The notes below the pieces were generated by a model. That model searched no databases. It was given only the letters and a program-made list of their open reading frames with translations, and was not told the origin of the DNA. From contig NC_134028.1 in NCBI RefSeq assembly GCF_964204645.1, positions 20,186,153 to 20,250,152 of the forward strand: a stretch of 64,000 bases of DNA. Direction: 5' to 3'. The position numbers and the translations under genes were made by a program. Source of the DNA: Tubulanus polymorphus (taxonomy: Eukaryota > Nemertea > Palaeonemertea > Tubulaniformes > Tubulanidae). This document shows, in pieces, positions 14,959-53,700 of the stretch. Position 1 is the stretch's first letter; each line of letters begins with the position of its first letter.

Positions 14959-16110
14959 TTAGAGTTCATCGTTATCCGCTGTCCCAGCTGGTTCTACGGG
15001 TTTATCTGGTGCTGTTCTGCGCGGCCTTTGCTCTTCTGTATTAAACGCCACTGTTTCAGACATTTCATCGTAAGCGACGATCGTTTCACCGGTGAGTTTC
15101 GGGCAGACTATCGCGCGCGCATCAGACCGGAACCAGTCCACTGTTAGGATATAGACCACGTAGTTAAAACAGTTATTCAAAAAAACAAATCGATACAAAA
15201 AGTCGCCAGTAGCAACCGCATAATCGCCGAATAATCTTCTAAGTCCATATTTCTTATTCACATTAATTTCATAATCGATGGTGCATTGCCAAATGCTTAG
15301 AATCACGGCTGGAGTGGTGAACACTAGAAACATCGTAGAAACGACGATCAATTGTATGAATATTTTGCGATTTTTCAAAATTCGGTCACATCCATTTTGT
15401 CCCTCATCGCTTTCCAACATGGTGACGTTCAGGTTCCGGTTCCGGTACATAGCGACTAGGATGGCTCCGTTACCGAGCCACACGAGACTTACCGGTACCG
15501 TATAGACGACACAGTAAAGGAAAAACGGCCCAAAATAACTGAATAAACCTTCATTTGAGGGAAAGTATAAACATTCGATGAATATACCGTCGTCATCGAT
15601 ATTGAACGATGTCAGAACGGGAACCATTAAAATTCCACCCAGAACCGAGAAGATTGACAGCGTCACCAGACGACATTTTCTTGTTAAAGAACAATAATCA
15701 AGTTTCAAACGTAAGAATCTTTCAGCGGTAAAAATAACGACGATCCACGAAGCGATGAAAGCAGACGTATAACTGATATAAGTGATTATTTTACACGAAG
15801 CCGGAGTCGATAATATGTTTGTTTTAATGTCTCTAGCTCCACCAATAGCGTGCGGCATATCCAAGTGAAGCCACTTCAGAAAAGCCCCAAATATCAGGAA
15901 CATTAGGTCGGCGACTGATAACGGGAATATATAATCAAAGACATCCGTTAATCTCAATCTGCGGCTTTTAATGAAAACAAATATAGCGAATAGGTTGCCT
16001 GCAATTCCCTGTATGTAGAAAATAGGGAAAATGTAAGCGACAAAAACCATCAAACCTTTGATGATCGCATCTGGAACTCGGTTATCCGTACTATTGGTTA
16101 TGTTGTCCAT
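14959..16110 (-). CDS. Orphan class A (rhodopsin-type) GPCR, copy 1
   Basis: A single-exon 383-residue seven-helix receptor of the plasma membrane, probably sensing a peptide or other small ligand. Seen: two N-glycosylation sequons at the N-terminus (N3, N6); TM1 with GN (residues 39-40); TM2 with SVADLM (about 65-70); Cys106 at the top of TM3 and Cys180 in loop 2, the expected disulfide; ERF (130-132) in place of DRY; TM4 about 147-168; TM5 about 192-222; TM6 about 249-275 without the usual CWxP; TM7 with NYVVY (316-320) in place of NPxxY; and a helix 8 with Cys336, a possible palmitoylation site. The Met in TGGACAAC context begins the alignment with copy 2. The ligand and subfamily cannot be assigned by eye. 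It is head to head with copy 2, with 1.74 kb between the starts. Confidence 0.92.
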   Translation of the reverse strand: MDNITNSTDNRVPDAIIKGLMVFVAYIFPIFYIQGIAGNLFAIFVFIKSRRLRLTDVFDYIFPLSVADLMFLIFGAFLKWLHLDMPHAIGGARDIKTNILSTPASCKIITYISYTSAFIASWIVVIFTAERFLRLKLDYCSLTRKCRLVTLSIFSVLGGILMVPVLTSFNIDDDGIFIECLYFPSNEGLFSYFGPFFLYCVVYTVPVSLVWLGNGAILVAMYRNRNLNVTMLESDEGQNGCDRILKNRKIFIQLIVVSTMFLVFTTPAVILSIWQCTIDYEINVNKKYGLRRLFGDYAVATGDFLYRFVFLNNCFNYVVYILTVDWFRSDARAIVCPKLTGETIVAYDEMSETVAFNTEEQRPRRTAPDKPVEPAGTADNDEL

Positions 16111-16130
16111 TTCAAAAGTTGAATAGCAAT

Positions 16131-17829
16131 GAAAATTGAGATTGTCCGACCGTTTTGAAGTTCACAAAAACCTCTCTCGCGTATTGTTGTTAAAAAATCA
16201 GTAAATACCCCTCCAATGGTTTCACGTCATAGAAAACGTTCTTGTTTAAGTATTATCAATAATATCTTGATGCTAAACTTACTCATTTTGTAAAACGGAT
16301 GTAGCTATGGTCCCCAGTTGCTTACAATATTAGGTAGAATGGTGGTTCTAGTTTTATCATTATAACTTTGAAATGTTCGCACAAATGGTTTATTCAAATC
16401 AATTACCGTAATACGAATGTATGTATGTCAGTTAAACCATGATCAGAATATTCATGGTATGAGCAAAATCAGAATATGAGTCATATGGGATAGTTCTTCG
16501 GGGAACCTGAAGCGCCTATCTTAGTCCACGCAAAAAAAAGAATTGCTTGTTTCTAATTCTCATCAGTTTCATTTTCCGCGCGCGTCAAAAATTATCGTCA
16601 GTAAAGAATGAAAATAAATATGCGCATCCCGCATGCAAAAATCTGTTTTCGTTTCTAAGTAAAACACTCCCGCACACGATAAACAACCTCATCACACTTT
16701 TTTGATTATTTTATTCGCGGTCGCTACCCAATTGTTACTGTGGAAGGCGAGTATTTCGGTAACGAAGTGCTTTCCGACCTGATTCAAGGCCGCGTTAAGG
16801 CCTAAATTTCCCCATTCAAAAATGAGAGAATAGTCGCCCTCATCACTTATGGAATTTGGAATTAGGGTTTTTGCTCTCTTTTTAAAAAGAGGGATGTAGA
16901 AATAAAAACCTGCTGCCCTCGTCACTTTTCCACAAAAGGCTGATGAGAAACAATGGTATCTCCTTGCGTGACCTATCGATCTTCTCGAAATTGAATGGCA
17001 AAAACAAGCGCATTGATAACGATAACAATAGTTTGATTTATTCGAGCGCTGCGCTTCTTTACCGCGTTACAGCGCACAAGGTTTACATAGATTATAACTG
17101 AATAGAGTTCATTTGATAGAAATGCGAATATATTGCGATACATACAACATTGCGCGGCAGAAAATGACATCTGTGACAAGAAAGAGAAAATAAATTCAAT
17201 AGATTTCAATTCAGTATATACATTACGTTGCGTGGATGTGTATAATTCGTTAGTCCTAATCCTGAAATATATCATATAGATTACCAGGCCTGAAGCTATT
17301 GATAAGAACCTCCTGATGAATGCACCGAATGCGATGCACTTCTCCAATCGAAGAAAATGATAATGATGGACATTGTGAGTAAATAGAGCACTTGACGACA
17401 ACCATTATACACAACTGGTCACTACGACTCTCCTGACTGGTCTGTCACCACATGTATAATCTAATAACTTTTTCTTAGCTTTTTCTTGCTTTGCTTATCA
17501 GCGCAAAATATATTCTAGGGTCAACAACAATTTCGGTTTTAGATTTTTCAGCTATTCATTCTGATCACAATTTGGAAATATGATCTCGCAACCCCTCTCG
17601 GATTCCATAGCAATAGCGTACGTATTATGTATGCGAATTTCTAATGGACGACATCTGTCACATTTTACTTTCCATCCAATGCCTGAAGTTCAAAGCAACG
17701 GAAAAAATAACTTAGGTACACAGCTGTGAACGCAATAACCAATTGGCTACAATATAATCAGCTGTTTTCAAAGAAGCTGAACACAGAAACTTGATACTGG
17801 CACACGACCATTCGACGGGTTGAAATCAA
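16131..17829. other. Spacer between the two receptor genes; likely holds both promoters
   Basis: About 1.7 kb of non-duplicated DNA between divergent start codons. It must carry the 5' regions of both receptor genes. A 142-codon minus-strand frame (16973-17401) has no recognisable domain and is unconvincing. No shared promoter motif stood out. Confidence 0.4.
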
Positions 17830-17848
17830 ATCCTGCGAGTCTAGAATT

Positions 17849-19003
17849 ATGGATAACGTAACAAACAGCACGGACAACCAAGTTCCAGATGCGTTCAGTA
17901 AAGGATTACTGGTTTTTGTCGCTTACATTTTCCCTGTTTTCTACATACAGGGAATTGCAGGCAACCTATTCGCTATATTTGTTTTCATTAAAAGCCGCAG
18001 ATTGAGATTCACGGATGTATTTGATTATATATTCCCGTTATCGGTCGCCGACCTAATGTTCCTGATATTTGGGGCTTTTCTGAAGTGGCTTCACTTGGAT
18101 ATGCCGCACGCTATTGGTGGAACTAGAGACATTAAAACAAACATAGTATCGACTCCGGCTTCGTGTAAAATAATCACTTATATCAGTTATACGTCTGCTT
18201 TCATCGCTTCGTGGATCGTCGTTATTTTTACCGCTGAAAGATTCTTACGTTTGAAACTTGATTATTGTTCTTTAACAAGAAAATGTCGTCTGGTGACGCT
18301 GTCAATCTTCTCGGTTCTGGGCGGAATTCTAATGGTTCCCGTTCTGACATCGTTCAATATCGATGACGACGGTATATTCATCGAATGTTTATACTTTCCC
18401 TCAAATGAAGGTTTATTCAGTTATTTGGGGCCGTTTTTTCTTTACTGCGTCGTCTATACGGTACCGGTAAGTCTCGTGTGGCTCGGTAACGGAGCCATCC
18501 TAGTCGCTATGCACCGGAACCGGAACCTGAACGTCACCATGTTGGAAAGCGATGAGGGACAAAATGGACGTGATCGAATTTTGAAAAATCGTAAAATATT
18601 CATACAATTGATCGTCGTTTCTACGATGTTTCTAGTGTTCACGACTCCAGCCGCCATCTTCAGTATCTGGGACAGTGTGGTCAATTATGAAATTACCGTG
18701 AATAATAAATTCGGATTGAGAAAGATGTATTCCGATGCTTATACCGGGGCTACTGCAGATTTCGTGTATCGATTTGTTTATTTGAATAACTGTTTTAACT
18801 ACGTGGTCTATATCCTAACAGTGGACTGGTTCCGGTCTGAAGCGCGCGCGATAGTCTGCCCGAAACTCACCGGTGAAACGATCGTCGCTTACGATGAAAT
18901 GTCTGAAACAGTGGCGTTTAATACAGAAGAGCAAAGGCCGCGCAGAACAGCACCAGATAAACCCGTAGAACCAGCTGGGACAGCGGATAACGATGAACTC
19001 TAA
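17849..19003 (+). CDS. Orphan class A (rhodopsin-type) GPCR, copy 2
   Basis: Intronless 384-residue receptor, nearly identical to copy 1 on the opposite strand. It has the same sequons, the same Cys106-Cys180 pair, and the same ERF and NYVVY variants. Over residues 1-268 only about a dozen substitutions separate the copies, and the last 50-odd residues are identical apart from one Asp/Glu exchange. In contrast, residues 269-312 (end of TM6, loop 3, start of TM7) carry about 21 substitutions and a one-residue insertion. That region borders the ligand pocket of class A receptors, so the copies may differ in ligand preference (inference). Both frames are intact with no premature stop. AATAAA follows the stop by about 6 bp. 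Confidence 0.92.
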   Translation: MDNVTNSTDNQVPDAFSKGLLVFVAYIFPVFYIQGIAGNLFAIFVFIKSRRLRFTDVFDYIFPLSVADLMFLIFGAFLKWLHLDMPHAIGGTRDIKTNIVSTPASCKIITYISYTSAFIASWIVVIFTAERFLRLKLDYCSLTRKCRLVTLSIFSVLGGILMVPVLTSFNIDDDGIFIECLYFPSNEGLFSYLGPFFLYCVVYTVPVSLVWLGNGAILVAMHRNRNLNVTMLESDEGQNGRDRILKNRKIFIQLIVVSTMFLVFTTPAAIFSIWDSVVNYEITVNNKFGLRKMYSDAYTGATADFVYRFVYLNNCFNYVVYILTVDWFRSEARAIVCPKLTGETIVAYDEMSETVAFNTEEQRPRRTAPDKPVEPAGTADNDEL

Positions 19004-35700: not shown

Positions 35701-38700
35701 TCCATTTCGCCCCAATATGTTAGAAGCTGCGAAACTGCTGATCTTTGCATCTGATAATTACCAAAAGTCTTCTAGGGAGCACTTACAGGACCCCGCCACT
35801 AAAACTACGCACCTCACAGTTCCACTTAATCAAAACAGATACGTGCACGTCCAGAATATCGACATTTCACAGAATTCCGGAAATATATTTCCAGAAATTT
35901 CTGTTCAGAATTTTCTGCCGACGTTTCTGTTTTCCAGAATTTTCTGCTGTCTGTTTGATAGGTTAACTCAATCCTAAGCCTATAAACCCTATAAAATCTC
36001 TAAACCCTAGACTTTAAACCCTAAACGCAGAAAAGCAGATGAAATATGGGATTCTCACTGAAATTTCTGTCAAGCTTCATTTCCCGACATATATGCATAT
36101 AAATTGACCCCCCCAAAAAGCAATGCTAGCTTCAGGTCTCAGATACATATCTTATCTATAGGATTTTTCTTTAACGAGTGTAGTTTGAATGCGGGCGTGT
36201 TTGTCTATTTAGAATAACTCGCAGGTGTGTCAGCTGTGTTCCGATACTACCAGTGTTCAGGTGTCTGGGCTAACAGCAGCACTATGCGCGGCTTATGACG
36301 AAATATAGGCTATAATTTAAAAAATCATTGACGGAATAAAAACAATGTTTGGGATCCAATAGAACAGAAACATCTGTGACATTGTCATGTATTATACAAC
36401 GTAAAGAACAGTACTCGTAGGCATACACTCGAAGAGTTAACTGAGTTTTATCGACGATAATCCCATCCTTAACCCATTAAACATTGAATACCATTGAATA
36501 CTCTTCTTAACCATCGATCTAACCAGACTTACGGAGCTGATTTCGGATAAAGATAAAAACGAACTTTGGCCGGATCTATAATAATTTTGCCAATGATGAT
36601 TGTTTTGAAAACGTACGTATTTTAAGTCATCGACTATAATATGAAACAGCTGCGTCTAAAACATTATGACCCGCGACATTCATAAACAGCAAAATGACTC
36701 AATCGACCTGAATCATGATATCGGGGTCTCATATACGACCAGAGTCATCGAAACGCAACCGTTAAAAGAAATTTCTCCGGGAAACACCCCCGAACCCCTT
36801 AAAAGATAGGCGATTAAAATTTGTAAGAATTACGAACTTTTGAATGGGATGAGCAATAATTCAAGTCGAATTATCGGGAAGACGATATTGATGTTTATAA
36901 CTTCACCAGCGCGCATCGTTGCATTAACTTTAGAAATGAGTGATATATCATAAAGAAGTTACTTACCAGCTGAGTTCATCGATATTTTAACTTTGTTTCT
37001 TTCTTAATCCAATCCAGAGATATGAACGAAATAGAAAATTAAACAATGCGGACCCGGCGGGTACCAAAAAATGGCGCCTGGAAACTGTAAAAAGGCTTAT
37101 TCCTCCCGCGGTTAACGCCTCGCACCGTCGGATATGAGCTTGTGGTTTCTGGGGTCCGAACCCACCTGCCTTGCCGTCGGCCGCTCTTTCTGTAACGACG
37201 GTGGTCGTTAGAACCTGTCAGCAATTTGAACAATTATTTTGACGAAAAAAAAACATCAATCAACGGACACCAAGTGGCAACGAGGTGCCATGCGTATGAA
37301 CTTCCGCGTGGCTGTTTTATTAGAGAAATATCCTTCCTTCTTTTTAATCTTCTCTTTTGAATTTTTCTATAGGTTTTATATAGATTTTAAATAGATTTGC
37401 ATATAAATATGGTGGCTGATAAGGGCCATAGTGTAAAATTCCTGGTATGTAAATGAGGGCGCCAGAACGCCAGAACGCCAAAACGAAAAAAAACGTCCAA
37501 TTTTCTCTGAAAGTTCGTTTTGGCGCACCAAAACGGAGAATATTCCGTTTTGGCGCCCCCGCCAAAACGAACTTTCATTTTGGCCCCCCCGCCAAAACAA
37601 CGAAAAACGTAAAAATTTCTCTAAAATTTCGTTTTGGCGCGGTTATTTCCGTTTTGGCGTCCCCGCCAAAACAAGCATTCAACCACAGTAAAATTATTTT
37701 CAATTTGGCGCGTTGATCTTGTGTGTAATTTGCATAAATTTGCATATATAAAATTATTTTACGTATATATAGAATTATTTTACGTGGTTTAAAGTTCGTT
37801 TTGGCGGGGGCGCCAAAACGGAATATTCTCCGTTTTGGCGCGCCAAAACGAACTTTCAGAGAAATTTCGACGTTTTTCGTTGTTTTGGCGGGGGCACAAA
37901 AACGGAATTTTCTTTTGGAGAAAATTGGACGTTGCTTTCGTTTTGGCGTTCTGGCGTTCTGGCGCCCTCATTTACATACCAGGAATTTTACGCTATGGTC
38001 CTTATCAGCCACCATATATACAGGATCAAAGTCGGTAAAAGTGCAGATCTGCGCCTCTCGTGATTAACGCAATCTAATGAATGACAGAATCCAGGCTAAA
38101 ATCTTTATAGTGAAGATATCTTTAAACTTAACCAATGGCAATGGCAATGTACTGAAATGCTGATGACATTTTGAATCTGAAAACAATGATATTTAATGTA
38201 ATTGATTGAACCATTTACGCCGAGAGGTGCAGATCTGCACTTTTACCTAAATGTCCACAAAACATGACTGATGTTTTTATTGAATTTAAGTTAGATCGAG
38301 CTAATTTGTTCTCTGAAAAATGTTGGCGTTAATTAAGCGAGCGGTGACATCGAGAAGGATGACGACAGTGGGTTTATAAACGAATTTTAACAATCGATAT
38401 AAACTGTAATTTCCATTTCCAGGTCAATGTAAATCGAAAATCACTCAGTTCCATTTCGTAAAAGAAAACTCGCCGGTCGGGATGACTGTATTCACATTCG
38501 ATCGAGCAACCACTGACAATTATACGTTTGTACCGGACCCCTCGGAACAGGGCGTTTCGGACGGGTATCTGAAACTGATTCTCAATTCTAACAACGGGAC
38601 GGTCGTATTGAACCATTCGATCAACGCCGAACGACTCGATCCTAGATACTCACCACAATCTAAGGTTAGTCACAGTTTTTGATACGTTTCTAACTGCTAT

Positions 38701-41700: not shown

Positions 41701-44700
41701 ATTCAGAAATGTTCGTATTTAAATCAAAATTCGATTTCTTAGTCAATTTGGAATACAAAAATGTAGAGAAAGCACTGTTGCACATAGGATGGCTCGTATC
41801 AGATTTGTTGGTTTGGATGCAAAATCGATAACATGTTTTATCATGGACTCTAAAACGAAACTTTAAGCCTAGCGCACATCGACACTGCGATTGGAGACAA
41901 CTTAGTTGCCAGGCAGTTTTCGGCGCATGAGAGCAATTGGCTGGATACAATCAGTTGCTCGAATTTGTCGATGTGAGCGAGCTTACGACTGGTTAGCGTC
42001 CATCTATATCCAGTTCCACCCAGTTGCTCATGTTCTACTTTTGAGCAACTAGTTGTACTCAGTTGCTCTCATATCCGTCGATGTGAGCGCTCCATAATCA
42101 ACAACACATGGTTGTAACTGACTAAAACAAAGCTATTTGTCACGTGACTTGTGATGCCCTCAAGAATATTTGCTAAACCACATCTCAGTTGCTGTCGATG
42201 TGTGCGCTATGGACCTAGTATGGTGGCTGATAAGGGCCATAGCGTAAAATTCCTGGTATGTAAATGAGGGCGCCAGAACGCCAGAACGCCAAAACGAAAA
42301 AAAACGTCCAATTTTCTCTAAAAGTTCGTTTTGGCGCGCCAAAACGGAGAATATTCCGTTTTGGCGCCCCCGCCAAAACGAACTTTCATTTTGGCGCCCC
42401 CGCCAAAACGAACTTTCGTTTTGGCGCCCCCGCCAAAACGAACTTTCATTTTGGCGCCCCCGCCAAAACGAAATTTTCTCTGAAAGTTCGTTTTGGCGCG
42501 CCAAAACAACGAATATTTCGTTTTGGCGCCCCCGCCAAAACGAACTTTCGTTTTGGCGCCCCCGCCAATACGAACTTTAAACCACGTAAAATAATTCTAT
42601 ATATACGTAAAATATTTTCATTTATGCAAATTTATGCAAATTACACACAAGATCAACGCGCCAATTTGAAAAATAATTTTACTGTGGTTGAATGCTTGTT
42701 TTGGCGGGGGCGCCAAAACGGAAATAACCGCGCCAAAACGAACTTTTCTTTGTTTTGGCGCGCCAAAACGAACTTTCAGAGAAATTTCGACGTTTTTCGT
42801 TGTTTTGGTGGGGGCGCCAAAATGAAAGTTCGTTTTGGCGGGGGCGCCAAAACGGAATATTCTCCGTTTTGGCGCGCCAAAACGAACTTTTAGAGAAATT
42901 TCGACGTTTTTCGTTGTTTTGGCGGGGGCGCCAAAACGAAAGTTCGTTTTGGCGGGGGCGCCAAAATGAAAGTTCGTTTTGGCGGGGGCGCCAAAACGGA
43001 ATTTTCTTTGTTTTGGCGCGCCAAAACGAACTTTTAGAGAAAATTGGACGTTTTTCGTTGTTTTGGCGGGGGCGCCAAAATGAAAGTTCGTTTTGGCGGG
43101 GCGCCAAAACGGAATATTCTCCGTTTTGGCGCGCCAAAACGAACTTTTAGAGAAATTTCGACGTTTTTCGTTGTTTTGGCGGGGGCGCCAAAACGAAAGT
43201 TCGTTTTGGCGGGGGCGCCAAAATGAAAGTTCGTTTTGGCGGGGGCGCCAAAACGGAATTTTCTTTGTTTTGGCGCGCCAAAACGAACTTTTAGAGAAAA
43301 TTGGACGTTTTTCGTTGTTTTGGCGGGGGCGCCAAAACGATAGTTCGTTTTGGCTGGGGCACCAAAATGAAAGTTCGTTTTGGCGGGGGCGCCAAAACGG
43401 AATTTTCTTTGTTTTGGCGCGCCAAAACGAACTTTTAGAGAAAATTGGACGTTTTTTTTCGTTTTGGCGTTCTGGCGTTCTGGTGCCCTCATTTACATAC
43501 CAGGAATTTTACGCTATGGCCCTTATCAGCCACCATAACCTAGCGACCGGCATGAGCCGCGCAGTTGCTGGGGTTTACTAAATTTTCGATGTGCGCGGGG
43601 TACTCGCTCACTAGCAACTAGTTGTCTCCAGTCGCTTTGTCGATGTATGCTTAGCTTTAGAGTCCATGGTTAAATCTACGTACGAGCAATCATCTCGATT
43701 GCTCGAAGGTTAAATCTTGGAATGATTAATCATTTCAAATGATTACTCCAAGGTTAAATCTAGTTACCACTCTGATACGAGCCACTGCGTGCCGTACTGT
43801 CCCAAACCAAAGGCGAATCTATCACATCAAATTAAATTTGATTTTAAGTAAAATCGTATTTATCCTGGCATAATCAAATTTGGTTTGGTCTAATTTTTGA
43901 ATTTAGCACGGTATCAAATTCAAAGCGATTTATCAAATGATCAAATCACCTCGAGTGGTGATTTGGTACGATTTGCAGATGCCAAACTAAAAACAAACTG
44001 AAAACTCATTCATAGGAAATGATATTTCAAAAACCAGGGCAGTATTTTCTTGTCAGCCGTTTTGAACAAGCCGTCAAATTCATACAGTTGTGCAAATCTT
44101 ATTTGATTAGATTACACGTGACTAGCAAATTAAAATTAGGAAAATCAAATCTGATTTGAATCAAAGATAAATTCGCCTCAAGATGTACTGCGCAACTTCG
44201 CTGATAAGCGGGTTCGAGTCCTGCTGATGTAGGTGTACCAAATCAAAACGCTAGAACGCCAAAAACAAGGAAAACTGCCCTTCCCGTCAGGTTAAATATG
44301 AATGGTTATGAAGACCCGAATTTAAAAAACAAAACCAGACCTCATCATGGACAGTTTGACCTGGATTCACAGCAACCACTACTATCCTCATCACGGGTAG
44401 TCTGAATACCAAGTCGTTGCTAGCGGTTCCCTTGTTTGAGGAACAACAACTAGGTACTAGACCACATCACGGGTCGCTTCTCCGCTAATCTCTCACTATT
44501 CATTCATAGACTCCGTCCATAGTGAATCAACCACTGCTGACTGTTCCTCCGCTTCACGCGTTTGATCAAGATACAGGCATCAATATGACCATTAATTACA
44601 GCATAGAAAAAGGTTGGTTTTCTGACAATATAGCATTTATGTGAGTTATTTAGTAGAAACACGTGTGCATACTAGAACCTACTGACAATGTCGATTTTAC

Positions 44701-50700: not shown

Positions 50701-53700
50701 ATATTGGATGAGGTAGGGAAGTGGGACAGAGATGGATAAGTGAGAGAGGGAGAAAGTGAGTGAGAGTGAGGGGAAAGATGAGTGAGAGGAAAGGAGGGCA
50801 AAGGAGGGGAGAGATGAGTGAGAGGGAGGTCGGAGGGAATTTCTCTGATAATGGTTGTAAGTTTTGTATTGTAGGCAACGGATGCTGATAAAACGTCAGT
50901 GCTGTCTTACAGTATCACGGCCGGTGACTTGAACAAACAGTTCTCAATCTCGTCAATGTACGTAAGACCTCTTTTGAAACCCTAATATTTTCTGACAATT
51001 CGTCTGGAAGATGGATGTGTAGAAAGTTGAAATCTATTTGTTACAGGGGAATGGTAAAAACTGCTAAAAGTTTAGACCGAGAAGTTAAACCGTCGTACAA
51101 TTTAACAATTGAAGTCACCGATGGCAAATATGTAAGTTTGAAAATAGAATGAAATGTCTGTCTCCCTACAGCTGAATGCTAAGGAGAATTTATACTATCA
51201 AAAGCGGTAACAAGCCGATTTAACAAACAGGTCACTGTGTGTATGTTCATTCTATCTGCATGATCTGGTGCTATGGTTCTTCAGGTCGAAACAAATAAGT
51301 ACCCCCCAATAAACCCCAAAAACATATTTCACCACATCTGCTGCGATAGCGCCTTATGACATCACAAATGAGTGCGATTGCAGTCACAGTTAATACAGCA
51401 CTTGACTAAAACACACAGTAGATCAGTAGGTTTGAAACATCGGGGGAATATATTTTCTCATTATACTCATTATGGCCTTCACAAGCACAGCATGTATTCG
51501 TGGACACAGGATATCCAATTTCCCGAGATCCCACATGATCTACTGGCAATGGGGGATATATTTTAAAATGCTCCAACTAAAATTCAGCGCCACTGAATCG
51601 GATACATGTAGTTTGAAGTTTGAAGTTCTTAAAAACAACTGTAGCGTCCATGGGTAGATGTTTGATATTCCTGTTGATATTCTCTTCCAGAAAGCGTTGA
51701 CCAGTCTCGGCATTGAACTGATTGATGTCAATGATAACGCGCCTGTTTTCGGTAACAATACTTACCAGTTTAACGTGACGGAAGAGCAGCCGATCGGAGC
51801 TCTGATCGGAGTAGTCAAGGCAACGGACGCTGATGTTGGCGGGAATGGCGAAATTACTTATTCTTTTGTCGGGACCTGGTAAGAGTCGAAGATGGCTGGC
51901 TTGAAATTATATTCGAAAGATCAATCTGAGTTTATACGCAATTATATTCATTTTCAGGGCAAAAGATTTCTTTTCAATCAATGCAATTGATGGACAAATA
52001 ACTTCGACTAAGAAGTTAGATTTGGAAGCACGATCAGTTTATGAGTTCAGCGTTCAAGCTATAGATAATGGCAATCCTAGGCTGTCGAGTTCAGCTAGTG
52101 TATCAGTGTTTTTACTTGATATTAATGATAATTTACCGGTATTTGTTGGATTGCCATACGCAGTAACGATTCCAGAGAATCTACTCGCTTCAAAATTCTT
52201 CACTCCGCAGGTAACTTACATTTTATACCTTTTATACCTATTAGTTAGAGTAGACAATGCCCAAGCCAGATCGTTTTACTTCGGAATGATATCCGAGTTA
52301 GATGGTACAGTAGACCCCACTCAAGTCAAATTGACTTGAGAATGATATCTGAGTTGGATGATACAGTAAACTCTGCTCAAGTGAGATCTTTTGACTTGAG
52401 AGTGATATCTGAGTTGGATAGTACGGTGGACAGTTTTCAAGTCGGATCTTTTGACTTGAGAGTGATATCCGAGTTTGATGATACAGTAGACTCCGCTCAA
52501 GTCAAATCTTTTGACTTGAGAGTGATATCTGAGCTTGATGGTACAGTAGACTCCGCACAAGTCAGATATTTTGACTTAATAATGATATCTGAGTTGGATG
52601 ATACAGTACGCTCTGCTTAAGTCAGATTGTTTAACTTGAGTATGATATCTGAGTTGGATAGTACGGTTGACTGTTTTCAAGTCGGATCTTTTGACTTGAG
52701 AGTGATATCTGAGTTGGATGTAACAGTGGACCCCGCTCAAGTCAGATTTTTTGACTGTGATATCTGAGTCGGGTATTACAGAATATTCCATTTGAGTCAG
52801 ACCTATTGACTTGAGAGCGATATCTGAGTAAGGTGGTTTCAGATTTGCGCAGTAGCCTACAACAGATTAGATCATACAAACATTGCTTGAATTTTAGATA
52901 TGTCACTTAAGACAATTCAAATTGTATTTTTGTATATGTAGATTTCTGATAAAGATATTGGTATCAATATGGCTGTCAGATTCTCAATCACGTCCGGGGA
53001 CATGAATCTATTTACTATTGACACAAGCAGCGGCAGTTTATCATTAAAATCCCCGATTTCCCTCGCTGCTGGGAAACCTACACAATATACCGTAACAATG
53101 ATGGTCTATAATACAGAGCCACCTGTAGGTGCAGCTCTAAATCAGCCCAATAACACGGCGGATGTGGTCATCAAAATTCAGGTAAGATTGAATAATTGAT
53201 ATTACGGATTGGAATTCATCATTTTTCTGAATATTTGAATGTTATGCGGATGAGATTCGATTATTTTGCAGGATGTCAACGACAACGCTCCTTTATTCAC
53301 AAAACCTATCTACGAATTTCCAGTTTATGAAAATGAGACGCTCGGAAAACTGGTCGGAAAGTAAGTTAAGGAGTTTTAGCAACACTTCAGCTCTTTTTAC
53401 ATTGTAATCTGGTTTCAGCCTATGTTTTCTTTTATCTGGCCCATTTATCAAATTTTGGAAGGGGGGTGATCAGTGGCTCTGAAATTGCACGTTAGGATAT
53501 ATTAAAAGTTCAAAAGATTTCTGAACATGAGTAGATATCATGTTTATTACCTAGCTGTGTTTGTTCTGCATTTCTTTCCGCACTTGTGTTTAGATACTGG
53601 ACTTTGCCAAGGGAACAATGACACCCTCTACCTAAATTCTGCATCTGCCTTTTGATTCTGTCTTCATTTAAACTATGTTTCTTTCTTGTCTGAAGAGTTT

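Follow-up and report, generated by a model that had tools for sequence, protein, structure and literature searches.

The stretch of DNA analysed here, a window of 64,000 nucleotides from the nemertean Tubulanus polymorphus, contains a foldback-like transposon, element A, which is identified by its ends, its target duplications and its coding relatives as a non-autonomous member of the IS3EU/GingerRoot-type DNA transposon family. Its arms carry arrays of palindromic modules, many of which read as E2F sites. The explanation favoured overall, with a probability of roughly 0.72, is that the element is moved in trans, that the arrays are repeated sites for the transposase and that the E2F likeness is incidental. 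The element, a second copy and their parts are listed below in the numbering of the window; types 5 and 6 belong to a set of array types described further on.

42219 to 43537, no strand assigned: element A, complete non-autonomous IS3EU-type foldback-like element of 1,319 bp, with TATGGTGG..CCACCATA ends, 97% inverted arms and a 6-bp target duplication
42213 to 42218, forward strand: left target-site duplication of element A, ACCTAG, the same 6-mer at both flanks
43538 to 43543, forward strand: right target-site duplication of element A, ACCTAG, the same 6-mer at both flanks
42219 to 42243, forward strand: left terminal tip of element A, TATGGTGGCTGATAAGGGCCATAGC, its first 13 bp common to types 5 and 6
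43513 to 43537, reverse strand: right terminal tip of element A
42287 to 42558, forward strand: left array of element A, TTTTGGCG/CGCCAAAA half-sites, CCCCC-centred polarity
42559 to 42698, no strand assigned: central AT-rich stretch of element A, without exact TTTTGGCG half-sites
42699 to 43469, reverse strand: right array of element A, polarity inverted (GGGGG-centred), with 113/144/257-bp higher-order repeats
37408 to 38016, no strand assigned: element B, a second, more diverged copy of 609 bp
37402 to 37407, forward strand: left target duplication of element B, TATAAA (5/6 match)
38017 to 38022, forward strand: right target duplication of element B, TATACA

The first-pass annotation had described a foldback transposon at 42221-43535. 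The element itself stands, with the exact limits now set from the target duplication ACCTAG, which places each end 2 bp further out. The inverted arms (42219-42439 and 43317-43537, 221 nt each, 97% complementary) fit the term foldback. Long inverted repeats made of a variable number of tandem repeats are known from FB and from the sea urchin TU elements. Element A is like Foldback and Tetris (the latter as described in excerpts of PMC4079207) in having such repeats in variable number, but its repeat units differ from those of Foldback, Tetris and the TU elements.

The first half-site of the left array lies 68 bp in from the end. Element A contains 55 exact TTTTGGCG/CGCCAAAA half-sites, mostly paired as the palindromes TTTTGGCGCGCCAAAA and TTTTGGCG-GGGG-CGCCAAAA, and 36 perfect matches to the E2F consensus TTTSSCGC, every one of them TTTGGCGC (42330-43419), so that the dozens of modules previously reported are indeed present. 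The palindrome TTTTGGCGCGCCAAAA fits TTTSSCGC on both strands, as had been claimed; the GGGGG-centred unit, which was said to add further sites, does so with one of its halves and not with the other. Across the window TTTSSCGC is matched 50 times, whereas 100 dinucleotide shuffles average 6.1 matches (sd 2.6), and TTTTGGCG occurs 73 times where 2.3 would be expected from shuffles; the consensus is therefore present beyond chance. Element B is poorer in modules, with 14 half-sites and 7 TTTSSCGC.

Element A is without a recognisable gene, and an Rfam search of the window at gathering scores gave no match. Open frames of up to 296 aa in the window, and of up to 741 aa in the genomic copy L024, run across the arrays; they traverse the repeat units on both strands and are read as a side effect of the repetition. 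Element A is bordered on both sides by short repeats, GTCGATGTGAGCG and AGCAACTAGTTG among them (41958-42208 and 43576-43650), and apparently landed in a different repetitive sequence. Elsewhere in the window two very similar receptor-type open frames lie in opposite orientation (14959-16161, reverse strand, with a Pfam 7tm_1 match, and 17795-19003, forward strand), an apparent inverted gene duplication, and a 60-bp tandem array at 52262-52829, partly in open frame, adjoins a cadherin-domain frame.

The first-pass annotation had allowed for the possibility that only these two copies exist. The assembly (268 Mb, 77 contigs) holds many more: the exact palindrome TTTTGGCGCGCCAAAA occurs 523 times, the GGGG/CCCC-centred module 934 times (472 + 462) and the 16-bp terminal tip, allowing a single mismatch, 788 times (386 + 402, a pattern that counts only ends whose 31st base is other than T), whilst the reversed-pattern controls for palindrome, GGGG/CCCC module and tip each gave 0 genome-wide. 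A match to COX1 was looked for in the assembly and not found. Evidence that these sequences have moved comes from 38 two-ended elements, in which both tips were recognised with up to 4 mismatches. Perfect 6-bp target duplications border 26 of them, 4 more match at 5 of 6 positions and 8 at four or fewer; mispaired flanks gave a perfect 6-bp duplication in 1 of 1406 combinations. At loci with several candidate tips the best 6-bp-matching pair was taken, a choice that favours 6 slightly. A perfect 4-bp duplication was found once in the 38, and perfect duplications of 3, 5, 7, 8 or 9 bp in none, the last being the length produced by FB, the MULE-type foldback element. In three of the first 20 loci fetched (L001, L004 and L005) one end has two copies of the 16-bp tip in tandem, and in L005 the target duplication abuts the outermost tip. 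The further possibility raised at the outset, that the modules are a simple satellite unrelated to transposition, is rejected because the arrays lie within target-duplicated elements.

Coding relatives of element A were found with its 72-bp end, which gave at least 41 matches (40 of 369 candidates scored), some of which pair into larger elements. One of 9,888 bp, whose two ends are L021 and L022, and one of 8,831 bp (L023) share this 72-bp end, bear an array at each end and are flanked by the target duplications AATATG and TAAAAC, respectively; a third, L037, measures 8,593 bp. Overall these relatives span 8.6-9.9 kb; besides the same ends and the same arrays they contain a HECT-like gene and a transposase with an integrase core, split into exons. 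The joined exons of L023 match the Pfam integrase core rva_4 at E 1.5e-29 (103.6 bits against a cut-off of 26), the single exons scoring 13-26 bits with one above the cut-off, and putative D/D/E positions, as assigned here, lie in HLDGYDK, MDAGTEN and RIERWW. Between the arrays of L023 the transposase exons occupy one strand and a HECT-like open frame of 632 aa the other. Over residues 541-618 this frame aligns with a portion of the HECT domain (E 7.9e-9), and there is a weak PDB match to the ubiquitin ligase E3C (E 0.0051). The two longest copies have identical versions of the frame (L023:4785-6680 and L022:222-2117, both reverse strand), and the diverged relative L032 has one that is 52% identical over 368 aa; the HECT-like gene was seen in transposons at L022, L023, L027, L032, L036 and L037. 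Searched against the genome, the joined transposase yielded at least 168 exon matches (134 of 145 candidates scored); among the matches listed, the last exon is matched at 94% or more in at least 11 loci and the rest are more diverged. At four more distant transposase loci (L032-L035) a convincing tip was not found. Diverged transposase loci also lie near other palindromic arrays, with TCGATATATCGCG and CAAGTCGTCATATTTATGTCG (L032:3436-3976 and L034:2288-2624).

These properties agree with what is described for IS3EU families, namely 6-bp duplications and TAYGG..CCRTA ends (PMC12730594), and for the grouping of IS3EU with GingerRoot, for which TA..TA ends are reported together with duplications mostly of 6 bp and a transposase whose relatives include IS3/IS481 and retroviral integrases (PMC10045372). 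In the present elements the duplication is perfect at 6 bp in 26 of 38, the termini TATGGTGG..CCACCATA conform to both TA..TA and TAYGG..CCRTA, and the coding copies carry an integrase-type DDE transposase matching rva_4. All the IS3EU features examined are thus present, the assignment being made from described hallmarks. The likeness to IS3EU/GingerRoot elements, as set out in excerpts of the two papers (PMC12730594, PMC10045372), covers the 6-bp duplications, the TATGG..CCATA ends, inverted ends longer than 30 bp, the integrase-type DDE transposase and the presence of an extra gene in coding copies. The extra gene is HECT-like here, in contrast to an alpha-kinase or TET/JBP gene in the fungal TET-carrying members, and the extended palindromic arrays that each end carries here are a difference from the elements as those excerpts describe them (PMC12730594, PMC10045372). 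Among the papers listed in a literature search, no title or abstract opening describes such arrays in IS3EU elements, which is no claim that they are absent from print.

The tip is associated with more than one kind of array. By the 60 bp inside the tip, 65 locus entries fall into type 1, that of element A (39), type 2 (10), type 3 (4), type 4 (5), type 5 (2) and type 6 (2), with 3 unassigned. Set aside from the typing were L013 and L014, which repeat L021/L022, and L058; no usable tip within 3 mismatches was present at L025, L026, L027, L032, L033, L034, L035 and L038, and listed ends with other flanks (C1:26644792, C2:7141256, C2:20066776 and C2:23021796) fell outside the sample. Since the tips listed are the first 100 of 788 and some of their loci were fetched, the type counts are not genome frequencies. 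Types 2-4 have an identical tip by selection, because they were found by the type-1 tip search. Types 5 and 6 were found by the transposase search, and their tips share the first 13 bp with type 1 and differ from it at 2 and 1 of 17 positions, respectively.

The half-sites differ between these types. Within 700 bp of one end, a reach that in short elements extends into the other arm or the flank, half-sites of the form TTTNNCGC, the only form that this pattern sees, carry the SS dinucleotide required for E2F in 480/548 cases in type 1, 2/148 in type 2, 2/4 in type 3, 0/14 in type 4, 0/88 in type 5 and 13/47 in type 6. In type 1 the dinucleotide is GG in 479 of 548. Three types have AT, GT or TG in place of SS: type 2 has AT in 79 and GT in 56 of 148, and TG accounts for 12 of 14 in type 4 and 69 of 88 in type 5. 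Type 6 is mixed (TG 18, GG 13, AG 9 and AC 6 of 47). In type 2 the change usually extends to the outermost module (GGGCGCC versus GGGCGAC). Type 3, with 4 loci, has 4 TTTNNCGC matches in total, so the module is not needed by every element that has the tip. Of the modules counted, the commonest is a 20-bp, non-E2F form of the type-2 module, with 13,187 exact matches in the genome, some nine times the 1,457 of the E2F-like modules. With SS confined mostly to it, type 1 is thus the E2F-fitting one among several types and is outnumbered by another.

It had been proposed from the letters that the modules are functional sites for the host E2F/DP, with the element acting as a decoy or portable cell-cycle regulator, or amplifying in step with S phase. 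The density of sites speaks for this, with 36 perfect TTTSSCGC in the 1.3 kb of element A and 111 in the locus of the 3.6-kb copy L024. The host genome has an E2F/DP-domain sequence (4 matches), so E2F binding to type-1 modules is possible. There is also a precedent in Brassicaceae, where MITEs carry E2F sites, binding of E2Fa is reported and about 85% of E2F motifs are given as lying in transposons (excerpts of PMC12595863). The present copies resemble those MITEs in carrying E2F consensus sites, but the share differs: TTTSSCGC occurs 23,750 times genome-wide (19,858 for the reversed pattern), and the E2F-like modules amount to at least 1,980 of these (2 x 523 + 934), about 8% when only exact modules are counted and every one is assumed to sit in the family. 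A second difference from the Brassicaceae case is that the non-E2F sister modules are here the more numerous.

If the host had kept the E2F sites, positions that fit the consensus should have been retained after insertion, and this was addressed with 68 type-1 arms from 37 locus entries, 19 of 87 arms having been removed as belonging to other types or having a divergence of at least 0.165. Private substitutions, those seen at a single locus, stand approximately for changes that followed insertion, whilst shared ones reflect source lineages. In the 29 older arms the private, non-CpG substitutions number 15/672 at E2F-perfect positions, 15/735 in the mirror half-sites, which do not match TTTSSCGC, and 37/1809 in the spacers together with the centres; Fisher tests of E2F-perfect against mirror and against spacer give p 0.85 and 0.75. 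Positions 26-67 have 13/1015 (p 0.17) and the tip has 20/694. At CpG the figures are 6/236, 5/202 and 8/404 for E2F-perfect, mirror and spacer. Retention of E2F-fitting positions after insertion was thus not seen in these 29 arms, the counts being small enough to leave room for a modest effect; as the private rates are equal across E2F-perfect, mirror and spacer positions, there is no sign of the host keeping E2F sites. Shared substitutions in the older arms behave differently, with 17/672 at E2F-perfect positions, 20/735 at mirror positions, 236/1809 in spacers, 59/1015 at positions 26-67 and 8/694 in the tip, the spacer figure and hence its contrast with the half-sites being inflated by alternating unit types. 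On these small counts, the transposing lineages keep both half-sites alike, E2F-fitting or not, as they do the tip.

A function in E2F binding is accordingly rejected as the reason for the arrays on the sister types, the module counts and the substitution rates: types 2, 4 and 5, whose tip is identical or almost so, lack the fit to E2F, the misfitting type-2 module far outnumbers the fitting ones, and the share of consensus sites contributed by the family is small. The decoy, regulator and S-phase proposals are left without support on the same grounds and are now very improbable. Nothing found calls for an E2F role, and the E2F likeness seems incidental.

The modules could bind a host repressor, or a chromatin or replication factor other than E2F, play no part in moving the element and be maintained as selfish, satellite-like repeats, a reading that is unlikely. 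Satellite-like features are present in the arrays, which contain 144-bp units, and type-2 modules TTTTRTCGCCCGCGACAATT are dense over stretches of about 6.5 kb (C1:12764219-12770625 and C1:11299198-11305929) that resemble a satellite derived from the ends of transposons. Tetris is a precedent for transposon-derived satellites (excerpts of PMC4079207), and two oyster satellites, CgiSat35 and CgiSat47, are annotated as DNA/IS3EU (excerpts of PMC8268682), a likeness to the present IS3EU-linked tandem repeats at the level of annotation. Amplification of another kind is suggested by the flank CTAAAGCCTTAAGG or a near variant, which replaces the varied target site at 37 of 100 tips among the matches listed (788 in total), as if one insertion had been captured and then amplified within another repeat; the eight such loci fetched (L016, L017, L019, L020 and L071-L074) are all of type 2.

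Against a host factor without a role in transposition stands the placement of the arrays, which occur at both ends of target-duplicated elements, coding ones included, in opposite polarity and mostly at one and the same distance from the tip. Of 19 chosen type-1 elements, 16 have exactly 68 bp ahead of the first half-site at the left end and 13 have this at the right end; modules most often lie 30 bp apart. The 9.9-kb element has 21 asymmetric centres on the left, all in forward orientation, and 26 on the right, all in reverse. Where elements have both kinds of centre, the CCCC-centred modules all lie to the left of the GGGG-centred ones in 13 of 15 and are mixed in the other 2.

A role through DNA structure, in which the 22-bp palindrome would extrude a 9-bp hairpin with a 4-base loop, was considered with the folding of one 22-mer per type or strand. 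Both type-1 strands fold to the 9-bp hairpin (z -2.7 and -3.3) and the type-5 module gives the same 9-bp stem. The type-5 fold is, however, no better than shuffles (z -0.85), and the type-2 module forms 3 pairs only (z +0.57). The hairpin is therefore not common to the types; extrusion as a common principle was rejected on these folds, and a structural function of the modules is scarcely probable at all.

By analogy the modules are most likely subterminal binding sites for the element's own transposase. The parallel is with Galileo, a foldback-like element of the P superfamily, whose transposase is reported to bind the end with its THAP domain at +63 to +80, outside the roughly 40 bp conserved between families, with further THAP sites in the tandem repeats of the long inverted repeats (excerpts of PMC3688188). 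As in Galileo, a short terminal segment is common to the families and the long inverted repeats with their tandem repeats are family-specific, and the Galileo sites therefore suggest, again by analogy, that the modules would be repeated transposase sites that raise its local concentration (PMC3688188). The proteins differ, Galileo having a P-type transposase with a THAP domain, in contrast to an integrase-core transposase and 6-bp duplications here (PMC3688188). A P-type transposase with THAP was not found: the joined L023 exons give only rva_4 at E up to 0.01, and none of the 10 L023 open frames scanned, the remaining small frames being left out, matched THAP at E up to 1.

In the favoured explanation, element A would be moved in trans by the integrase-core transposase of the 8.6-9.9-kb relatives with the same ends, which would cut at the short terminal tip TATGGTGG.. 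The palindromic modules, beginning 68 bp inside the ends and mostly 30 bp apart, would serve as secondary sites for this transposase, or for another element-encoded DNA-binding protein, and would concentrate the transposase on the element's own ends. The arrays would expand and contract as 144-bp higher-order repeats. The half-site would drift between transposon types along with the transposase, the tip staying nearly constant, and one type would by chance read TTTTGGCGC, which is E2F-like. The ends, the target duplications, the coding relatives with arrays at both ends and the type-specific half-sites beside a common tip are established directly; from them we infer the identity of the module-binding protein, mobilisation in trans, change in array size and co-evolution.

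Co-variation of module and transposase would have to be read from related types, not from independent lineages. For types 1 and 5 both ends are available along with transposase exons; type 6 offers a single end plus exons, and types 2-4 are without an assigned transposase. The exons of types 5 and 6 are those of L028 and L030, the former with both ends present, a length of 7,353 bp and the target duplication GGATTG. Compared with types 5 and 6, the type-1 transposase is 56-71% identical in exons E4, E6, E7 and E8, 32-34% in exon 1 (19 and 29 aa aligned) and 63-66% in exon 2, which is also N-terminal; E5 is 50% and 63% identical, and the last exon 37% and 54%. This divergence is consistent with, although not proof of, a shift in recognition, and since exon 1 is one divergent part among several and exon 2 is conserved, it would point to a change of specificity without giving its location.

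A bolder extension, offered tentatively and perhaps more doubtful than not, is that one IS3EU lineage in a single animal genome has split into 'dialects', each with a nearly unchanged tip and its own half-site array (mostly TTTNNCGC) read by its own transposase. Recognition of the array alone would then keep relatives and their followers apart, and one dialect would have converged on the E2F consensus. The genome provides a natural series in which nearly the same tip is combined with different arrays, with coding copies for at least three types, and such a series suits the direct study of how subterminal sites are recognised, how they drift and how cross-mobilisation is avoided. It also carries a caution, in that a dense and non-random consensus for a host factor within a transposon may be explicable without that factor once sister families are compared.
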